This document shows, piece after piece, positions 45,604-48,585 of a DNA stretch of 64,000 nt. This DNA is from Ulvibacter litoralis. GTDB taxonomy: Bacteria; Bacteroidota; Bacteroidia; Flavobacteriales; Flavobacteriaceae. The stretch spans positions 62,001 through 126,000 of the forward strand of contig NZ_FNBA01000002.1 in the NCBI RefSeq assembly GCF_900102055.1. Direction: 5' to 3'. Made by a program: the position numbers and the translations under genes. Positions within the stretch are counted from its first letter, which is position 1, and each line of letters begins with the position of its first letter. The notes below the pieces were generated by a model. The model did not search any database. It was not told the origin of the DNA and was given only the letters and a program-made list of their open reading frames with translations.

Positions 45604-45736
45604 ACTGCCTTATTTTACAGTGTGAAGGTACATATTTACAACAAATTGTGAAACGTATAAAATCAAGTCTTTTATTTAATTTGAGAAATATTCGTTAAAA
45701 AGTGATTTTGATGTTTTTCAAGATGAAAATATGTTA

Positions 45737-45744
45737 TAGCTTTG
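45737..45744 (+). promoter_or_regulatory. -7 box TAGCTTTG of the small transcript
   Basis: Exact TAnnTTTG match 10 nt before an ATG at 45755; no convincing -33 TTG is visible at the usual spacing. Confidence 0.5.
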
Positions 45745-45754
45745 TCCCATCAGT

Positions 45755-45814
45755 ATGAAACAAAATAATATGTATATCATTTGTAAAAAGTCTAGGAATT
45801 TTTCCGAAGGGTAG
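45755..45814 (+). CDS. Possible 19-residue leader peptide 1
   Basis: ATG-to-TAG frame encoding MKQNNMYIICKKSRNFSEG, placed 10 nt after a -7 box and 23 bp before a terminator stem. An octamer copy at 45800 lies in its last codons. It is too short to be certain; it could be chance. Confidence 0.3.
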   Translation: MKQNNMYIICKKSRNFSEG

Positions 45815-45837
45815 CGTATATAATATAATCAATATTT

Positions 45838-45872
45838 AAAACGCTCTACCTTCATACGTAGAGCGTTTTTTG
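45838..45872 (+). terminator. Strong intrinsic terminator 1 of the leader region
   Basis: A perfect 12-bp stem (AAAACGCTCTAC / GTAGAGCGTTTT) with an 8-nt loop, followed by T residues to 45871. Confidence 0.85.
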
Positions 45873-45886
45873 TTTAAATAATAAAA

Positions 45887-45967
45887 ATGAAAGAGTATAA
45901 TTCGATTTGTAGTTTGAATAAGCGTATGTGTAAACATGCCAATTTAACCGTATATCATAGGGAGTGA
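45887..45967 (+). CDS. Possible 26-residue leader peptide 2
   Basis: ATG-to-TGA frame of 26 codons with two Cys and several basic residues (starts MKEYNSICSLNKRMCKH). It lies between two terminators and ends 22 bp before the second. Translation is not shown; a leader-peptide role is inference. Confidence 0.3.
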   Translation: MKEYNSICSLNKRMCKHANLTVYHRE

Positions 45968-45989
45968 ATTCATATTTCACAATAGTCAC

Positions 45990-46030
45990 AATCCCTTTGG
46001 TTTTATTTATAATCAAAGGGATTTTTTTTT
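45990..46030 (+). terminator. Intrinsic terminator 2 / candidate attenuator before yitT
   Basis: A perfect 10-bp stem (AATCCCTTTG / CAAAGGGATT) with a 14-nt loop and a run of nine T ending 9 nt before the yitT ATG at 46040. No -7 box lies between it and the gene, so yitT expression seems to need read-through. Confidence 0.8.
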
Positions 46031-46039
46031 AATACAATT

Positions 46040-46891
46040 ATGAAAAATATAGTAACAATCAATTTAAGTAGAGAAAGAGTAATAGCCGAATTAATAAGCT
46101 ATGGCTGGGTGTTTTTTGGATCATTCATCTTATCCATTGCATATGTTCTGTTTATCATTCCTCATTCTTTGGTTCCAGGAGGTATTTTAGGGTTGAGTAT
46201 TGTAACAAACGAACTTACTTCCTTGTCCATTGGTATGGTGGCCTTAGCGGTTAATATTCCATTGTTATTATGGGGAACAAAGGTTTTGGGTAGAAAAGTA
46301 GGAATTAAAACGGCTTTTTCTATGATACTAGTTTCTTTGTTTATTGACTTATTTTCTATAGTCACAAATGGAAAAATCTATATTGATGATGTATTAGTTT
46401 CATCCTTGTTTGGGGGTGTTATTATTGGTGTGGCAGTTGCTATTGTCATGAATGCAGGGGCAACTACAGGAGGAAACGATATTTTGGTTCGAATCATCGC
46501 AACTAAGATCAAGTTGCCTTACAGTCAGTTAATTTTAGTTATTGACGGAGCAGTAATTCTATTGGGAATCTTTGTTTTTGAAGACTTTACCATGGCGGCT
46601 TATAGTATTATTGCCATTATTGCCATAAGTAAAACAATTGATTATTATATCAAGAAATCGGTTCAAAACCGTACTGTGTTTGTATTTTCAAGTAAAAACT
46701 TATTAATTCAAGAAGCTTTGTTGATGAATGAAAATAGTACCGATAGTATCTTAAAATTAATTCATCACGACTCTAATGACAAATTAATATTGATTACAAA
46801 AAACAATAAGAAAATAGCTCCTTTAGAGGGGTTAATCTATAGTATAGACCCGCATGCTACGATCACCGTGTTGGAGTCTAACAGTAATTAA
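46040..46891 (+). CDS. YitT family membrane protein
   Basis: 283 residues. About five to six hydrophobic segments in the first 200 (WVFFGSFILSIAYVLFIIP near 24, then VFGGVIIGVAVAIV-type and IILV segments), the family's NAGATTGGNDILVRIIATKI near 134-153, and a cytosolic DUF2179 C-terminal domain (VFVFSSKNLLIQEALL onward). The YitT family includes transporters but most have no proven substrate. It stands downstream of a terminator-ended leader, so attenuation is likely. No octamer copies occur in it. Confidence 0.88.
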   Translation: MKNIVTINLSRERVIAELISYGWVFFGSFILSIAYVLFIIPHSLVPGGILGLSIVTNELTSLSIGMVALAVNIPLLLWGTKVLGRKVGIKTAFSMILVSLFIDLFSIVTNGKIYIDDVLVSSLFGGVIIGVAVAIVMNAGATTGGNDILVRIIATKIKLPYSQLILVIDGAVILLGIFVFEDFTMAAYSIIAIIAISKTIDYYIKKSVQNRTVFVFSSKNLLIQEALLMNENSTDSILKLIHHDSNDKLILITKNNKKIAPLEGLIYSIDPHATITVLESNSN

Positions 46892-46903
46892 CAAAAATGT
46901 AAC

Positions 46904-46935
46904 ACGACTTTTGGAATGAGCATTCCAAAAGTCGT
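46904..46935. promoter_or_regulatory. Palindromic operator for the TetR-family regulator
   Basis: Perfect inverted repeat with 15-bp arms and a 2-bp AG centre; the left arm is ACGACTTTTGGAATG. It covers the -33 region (TTG at 46911) up to the -7 box TATATTTG (46935-46942), so a bound repressor would block RNA polymerase. The inner half-site TTGGAATG recurs at 47516. Confidence 0.8.
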
Positions 46936-46942
46936 ATATTTG
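46935..46942 (+). promoter_or_regulatory. -7 box TATATTTG for the tetR-like gene, 4 nt before its start
   Basis: Exact TAnnTTTG match, overlapping the operator by one base and separated from the GTG at 46947 by TATT. Confidence 0.65.
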
Positions 46943-48410: not shown

Positions 48411-48445
48411 TAGTTAAGGGAAGTAAAAATAATACTGAACTGATA

Positions 48446-48517
48446 TGTCATGTCGAGCGGAGTCGAAACCCACTTTAAAAAATAACTTTAAAGTTCTCGA
48501 TTCCGCTCGACATGACA
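48446..48517. repeat. REP-like intergenic inverted repeat
   Basis: 21-nt arms (TGTCATGTCGAGCGGAGTCG and A on the left) complementary except for one G-T-type mismatch, with a ~30-nt AT-rich loop. It lies between convergent genes and could also end transcription. Related in design to 13179-13236 (GTCGAGCG core). Confidence 0.8.
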
Positions 48518-48518
48518 T

Positions 48519-48585
48519 TTTTTAAATTTTGCTATCTGCTATATTTTTCCATTTTTAAATTTTGCTATCTGCTATATTTTTCCAT
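48519..48585. repeat. 33-bp tandem duplication at the 3' end of the amidohydrolase gene
   Basis: Two exact copies with period 33 bp. Reading on the minus strand, each unit contains ATGGAAAAATATAGCAGATA then G and an A/T-rich tail. The first copy codes for the last residues MEKYSR and the stop; the second is the untranslated repeat. It abuts the REP-like element. Confidence 0.9.

Follow-up and report, generated by a model that had tools for sequence, protein, structure and literature searches.

Attenuators of the trp, his and ilv type combine a short open reading frame (ORF), an RNA arm that is covered by the terminating ribosome, an intrinsic terminator and a gene downstream. Signs of attenuation by leader peptides have been described ahead of amino-acid operons in Flavobacterium psychrophilum, and section 19 of that report makes no mention of tandem units (PMC9723704). 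Two short ORFs within one leader are found in the Salmonella mgtCBR operon, which contains a transporter gene and for which amino-acid shortage is one signal; according to the passages on this leader, mgtM and mgtP sense different signals (ATP and proline, respectively) and their stem-loops are unlike intrinsic terminators (PMC3641672). In actinobacteria, Cys codons in short ORFs are thought or have been shown to control downstream genes, and the passages concerned describe runs of Cys codons before cys/cbs genes, Mycobacterium leaders that have no conserved terminator hairpins and, in M. smegmatis, translation attenuation (PMC1262725; PMC13236596).

The leader upstream of yitT in Ulvibacter litoralis, which lies in a window of 64,000 nucleotides (the whole stretch of DNA that was analysed, to which all positions below refer), has sequence counterparts of each of the parts of the trp, his and ilv attenuators, but it contains two full units in series, its leader peptides mostly hold a single Cys codon and no run, and the gene behind it codes for an uncharacterised membrane protein and is not part of a biosynthetic operon. 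It shares with mgtCBR the two short ORFs in one leader and with the actinobacterial leaders the Cys codons, but these are isolated and are combined with intrinsic terminators, twice. A literature search for a leader upstream of yitT gave no such title among the matches listed. The first-pass annotation had described a 26-codon frame followed by a perfect terminator that ends 9 nt before the yitT ATG (46040); these coordinates were borne out and the arrangement proved to be conserved in 18 genomes, and they cover the second unit of a tandem, the features of which are as follows.

45737-45744, plus strand: -7 box TAGCTTTG (TAnnTTTG), present in 18/18 loci
45755-45814, plus strand: leader ORF 1, MKQNNMYIICKKSRNFSEG and stop codon, with the Cys codon TGT at 45782-45784; open in 18/18 loci
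45807-45816, plus strand: proposed antiterminator 5' arm of unit 1, running across the stop codon of leader 1; best-pairing stretch in 18/18 loci, a bulged helix in the window
45838-45871, plus strand: intrinsic terminator 1, AAAACGCTCTAC..GTAGAGCGTTTT and a T run; from the terminator scan and compensatory pairs
45887-45967, plus strand: leader ORF 2, MKEYNSICSLNKRMCKHANLTVYHRE and stop codon, with Cys codons at 45908-45910 and 45929-45931; open in 18/18 loci
45924-45939, plus strand: hairpin (GTATGT GTAA ACATGC) at the second Cys codon of leader 2; a hairpin in 18/18 loci
45954-45963, plus strand: proposed antiterminator 5' arm of unit 2, ATCATAGGGA, in the last leader-2 codons; mimics the terminator 3' arm
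45990-46030, plus strand: intrinsic terminator 2, AATCCCTTTG..CAAAGGGATT; stem 45990-46023 and nine T ending at 46030
46040-46891, plus strand: yitT, YitT-family membrane protein of 283 aa (Pfam PF02588, E 4.1e-51)

The order of box, ORF1, terminator 1, ORF2, terminator 2 and yitT is the same in 18/18 loci. The box matches the Bacteroidota -7 consensus TAnnTTTG and starts 18 nt before ATG1 in 17 loci and 16 nt before it in L002; since it ends 10 nt before ATG1, the 5' UTR of leader 1 should be very short. mRNAs of these bacteria are described as lacking Shine-Dalgarno sequences in the passages of PMC6847099 on this point. From 40 nt before ATG1 to yitT this box is the sole TAnnTTTG, both in the window and in the other 17 loci, so that the earlier claim of no -7 box behind terminator 2 holds for 18/18 loci. 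A scan of 3 kb, both strands included, gave 10 terminator-like sites where shuffled sequence gave 1.5 (sd 1.1), and the stem of terminator 2 has 10 perfect pairs, or 13 in the scan counting G-T. Rfam 15 gave no match at gathering score in the 64 kb window and only sub-threshold ones in 45650-46050.

The whole cassette was recovered in 18 genomes of four genera (genera as grouped by the search tool). The 18 distinct loci compared here (the window, L002-L004, L026-L029 and L070-L079; L069 was left out as identical to L003 from ATG1 onward) are kin and not independent samples. In 397 genomes of the family the unit-1 model (R1) gave six strong matches of at least 102 bits, the next best reaching 51, and the same six genomes hold a close yitT in a protein search of 299 genomes. 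R1 matches at E<=0.1 occur in 187/397 genomes, all but the six strong ones at 51 bits or below; ten weaker loci were read by eye, of which four are leaders of ilvD (L036, L037, L041 and L060) and six look like ordinary terminators, and the remainder were covered by the scan only. Within three of the genera the cassette is present in 6/8, 5/13 and 4/7 genomes. The genus of U. litoralis has it in the window genome, G001 and G003, and G002 gave no leader-peptide match and only a weak R1 match. Upstream of the cassette, 11 of the 18 loci were examined and four different neighbour genes were seen (VF530, a monooxygenase-like gene, a DEAD-box helicase-like gene and a fourth; the monooxygenase and helicase names come from reading only), which indicates that the leader is inherited together with yitT. 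Wider relatives of the 26-aa peptide were sought and rejected, as 16 of the 19 matches (14/40 genomes, E<=10) were dropped as chance; the matches adjoining yitT were those in the window, G001 and G003 only.

Leader frames are open in 36/36 cases, each followed by a terminator, and are presumably translated. Their lengths change in whole-codon steps (60 or 63 nt for ORF1; 81, 84, 93, 96 or 99 nt for ORF2), with the stops fixed on the antiterminator arm; the stop of ORF2, which runs from ATG to TGA over 26 codons in the window, is likewise kept at a constant place relative to its arm. The spacer after ORF1 (70-84 nt) is free of the three-nt rule. By divergence class, pN/pS ranged from 0.40 to 0.76 in leader 1 and from 0.61 to 0.92 in leader 2, mildly below 1 and consistent with weak purifying selection on the peptides. 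Differences at codon positions 1, 2 and 3 numbered 796, 950 and 836 in leader 1, where they give no coding signal, and 1356, 1625 and 1996 in leader 2. To us these data suggest that an open frame and the identity of a few residues count for more than the remaining peptide sequence does.

The hairpins and T runs of both terminators were found in 18/18 loci, and almost every locus retains the core pairs, both partners having changed in places. In the window, terminator 1 shows the compensatory replacements G-C to A-T and T-A to C-G; for terminator 2, two loci have T-A replaced by A-T and two have C-G replaced by T-A. The best partner of the terminator 5' arm within the leader is the region of the stop codon in 36/36 units, as judged by comparing the pairing of a 21-nt stop-codon window with that of rival windows of the same unit starting at least 12 nt away. 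This window had first been picked by eye and its energy was matched by 0-0.14 of its own shuffles; in an unbiased scan the best window crosses the stop codon in 18/18 loci for unit 1 and covers the final codons of the leader, ahead of its stop, in 18/18 loci for unit 2. In unit 1 the arm includes the stop codon, commonly as UAGARCG opposite CGUUCUA (bulged in the window), and in unit 2 it resembles AUCAAAGRGA, a mimic of the terminator 3' arm. Of the ten pairs drawn for unit 2, the inner seven are kept in nearly all loci and the outer three form in 3, 13 and 7 of 18 loci, so that the antiterminator would have about seven pairs in most loci, fewer than the terminator. In unit 1 and in these inner seven pairs, changes in the arm are mostly A/G opposite T and pairing is kept. 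An antiterminator that excludes the terminator and is overlapped by the stop region was thus found in 36/36 units, and the alternative pairing that the first-pass annotation had suggested looking for in homologues is present in 18/18 loci for each unit, with seven of ten pairs in unit 2. A hairpin that would sequester the antiterminator arm was not established; on ORF1 plus its stop region, RNAalifold returned no consensus structure and no pairs, and a conserved ORF1 hairpin first suggested by eye was rejected for this reason and because most loci did not surpass their codon shuffles.

Because the best partner of the terminator 5' arm lies at or just before the leader stop, a terminating ribosome would mask the antiterminator, and the yitT leader very probably consists of two ribosome-mediated transcription attenuators in series. 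A single promoter immediately upstream of leader ORF 1 would start transcription. In either unit, a ribosome reaching the end of the short ORF would cover the antiterminator arm, whereupon the terminator hairpin would form and transcription would end; were the ribosome delayed further upstream, the arm would stay accessible, could pair with the 5' arm of the terminator and would let RNA polymerase read on. Production of YitT would require read-through at both units, whose effects would multiply. The earlier claim that yitT is expressed by read-through only, hence by attenuation or antitermination, gains support from the conserved pairing; that the read-through is regulated, by which signal, and what YitT does are points that we infer from sequence.

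The likeliest cause of a delay would be slow decoding of Cys codons when charged tRNA-Cys is scarce, and YitT would then switch on under cysteine or sulfur shortage. The Cys codons that had been noted in leader 2 turned out to be conserved, and their spacing from the stop varies little. There are 42 Cys codons in the leaders, all TGT; Cys makes up 4.9% of leader residues after the first, compared with 2.5% expected from composition and 0.8% in window ORFs of at least 150 aa. It occurs 10-13 codons before the stop in 33/36 leaders versus 3.5 expected, a count and a ratio that exceed those of the 10 other residues counted, of which Lys (27 vs 10.8), Met (16 vs 2.8) and His (13 vs 3.3) are also above expectation at this place. 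Of the 36 leaders, 27 contain a single Cys codon, two (L079 leader 1 and L072 leader 2) lack Cys, and L002 leader 2 keeps only the upstream one; every locus has Cys in at least one leader. Adjacent Cys codons were found in none of the 36 leaders, which thus contain no polycysteine run. The reach of a ribosome is given as 12-15 nt beyond the P site in the passages of PMC3641672 that treat it. By arithmetic, a ribosome with the Cys codon in its A site would leave about 13 nt between its edge and the antiterminator arm in either unit of the window, and about 7 nt in loci with Cys 10 codons before stop 2. These codons are the best candidate for the sensor and charged tRNA-Cys is a likely signal, to which we give an even chance; that tandem attenuators with a shortage of charged tRNA-Cys as the delay signal make up the full explanation appears somewhat probable. 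In the genome of U. litoralis, a strict leader scan, which requires TAnnTTTG near the ATG, found no Cys leader near eight PALP-family genes. A similar strict scan of L036-L068 did not recover the ilvD leaders; its one candidate was MGEIILVYNII in L048.

The same tandem attenuators could also be set by nascent-chain arrest, as in the TnaC and erm leaders, with the ribosome halting at Ile-Cys-Lys or Met-Cys-Lys when a small molecule or antibiotic binds. A lone Cys codon makes a weak tRNA sensor, and I, C and K of the leader 1 motif 'ICK' are each kept in 17/18 loci while much else drifts; yet, apart from a Cys with Lys or Asn behind it, leaders 1 and 2 have little in common, and Cys stays when its neighbours change (SKCQ in L073, HKCK in L026, MCN in L029), so we consider arrest unlikely. 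Somewhat less likely still is a general sensor of translation, in which any stalled or absent ribosome frees the antiterminator, inhibitors or starvation induce yitT, and Cys is incidental or kept by a hairpin. Since no arm-sequestering hairpin was established, an absent ribosome may indeed also mean the ON state, and the Cys codon of unit 2 lies in or at a hairpin whose structure might contribute to its retention. The share of codon shuffles that reach this hairpin is no more than 0.10 in 17/18 loci and no more than 0.05 in 10/18 (0.053 in the window). The TGT is in the 3' arm of this hairpin in most clades and in the 5' arm and loop in the window, and such variation by clade weakly favours the codon over the structure. 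A general sensor would also leave the distance of the leader 1 Cys unexplained; in most loci, folding of the last 12 codons of leader 1 does not surpass that of codon shuffles.

Two further explanations were considered. Were the leader an unregulated double terminator that yields short RNAs, with yitT expressed from a constant low level of read-through, the conserved frames, stop positions and antiterminator arms in 36/36 units would have no explanation, and we regard this as very improbable. More improbable again is that yitT is driven from a different kind of promoter, located within the leader or immediately in front of the gene. Matches to a sigma-70-like pattern do exist there (e.g., 45985-46013), but they number 19 on both strands of 3 kb against 12.8 expected (sd 3.7), and the region holds no TAnnTTTG box in 18/18 loci. 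The sigma-70 pattern differs from the promoter pattern of Bacteroidota.

A comparable arrangement precedes ilvD (named from reading the protein sequence) in the genome of U. litoralis, where the unit-1 model matched with 55 bits (E 1.2e-6) at the following place.

G000:C38:228308-228425, minus strand: ilvD leader L060, a match to the unit-1 model

This leader was found only in a separate search, the search of 397 genomes having used stricter filters. The order is leader 1 MNTQIINIISSIPAIILQG, terminator, leader 2 MKLISSILVIIIIIPWC, terminator and ilvD, and a leader of the first kind stands before ilvD in three other genera (L036, L037 and L041), with a second leader in L037 and L041. As at yitT, two ORFs and two terminators lie in series in L060, L037 and L041 with the arm at or just after the stop: of the 7 ilvD units tested, 5 have their best-pairing window across the stop, and in both L037 units it starts 3 nt after the stop. 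The ilvD leaders differ in being rich in Ile/Val and in that the second terminator lies about 165-300 nt before ilvD, compared with 9 nt at yitT. Ile/Val-rich leaders before ilvD are a prediction of branched-chain amino-acid attenuation, so that this architecture appears to be used for amino-acid sensing in the same genome.

The YitT family is described as uncharacterised in Pfam (PF02588), the AlphaFold model was too poor for use (mean pLDDT 44.7), and the passages concerned assign no function to YitT in PMC9723704, PMC7366714, PMC10434189, PMC10240068, PMC13148045, PMC10533825, PMC4944035, PMC1262725, PMC3641672 or PMC13236596. Five YitT paralogues (found in four of the five genomes searched) have no such leader in the 330 nt upstream, as judged by eye, and the device therefore seems specific to the YitT subfamily downstream of the cassette. 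Depletion of Cys in YitT (0-1 Cys in 283-285 aa, 18/18 orthologues) was considered as a sign of cysteine starvation and rejected, as the leaderless paralogues also have only 1-2 and 5/46 window ORFs of at least 200 aa (YitT included) lack Cys too. A link to sulfate assimilation was likewise discarded: PF01507, which we take to be the family of CysH and CysD, is present in 16/18 cassette-positive and 12/14 cassette-negative genomes, showing no association. As a separate observation, 28/32 genomes searched have a PF01507 protein and that of U. litoralis, one of the 32, has none, and sulfate assimilation by this route may have been lost there.

We tentatively suggest that Bacteroidota have attenuators of transcription that sense cysteine and work through intrinsic terminators, with two leaders giving a multiplied response, and that the YitT subfamily is a cysteine- or sulfur-related transporter, a reading that we hold to be plausible but somewhat doubtful. 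If true, it would provide a testable function for a widespread family of uncharacterised membrane proteins. For the subfamily, a concrete hypothesis would follow from a leader responding to a single amino acid. Serial attenuators, seen here before both yitT and ilvD, would be a simple means to steepen a response, and the Flavobacteriaceae would be a good place for the study of leader peptides in bacteria described as having no Shine-Dalgarno sequences.

Three repeats were seen in passing. Between yitT and a TetR-family gene, the window has a 16-pair inverted repeat (46902-46937) with a TATATTTG box at its 3' end, which may be a TetR operator. In G001, the near-identical stretches L022 and L023 lie about 8.6 kb apart on one contig, within a longer repeat. 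The window also has an inverted repeat at 48414-48525 whose two strands read MSCRAES..DSARHD as short frames; a mobile repeat of intergenic DNA is a possible identity.
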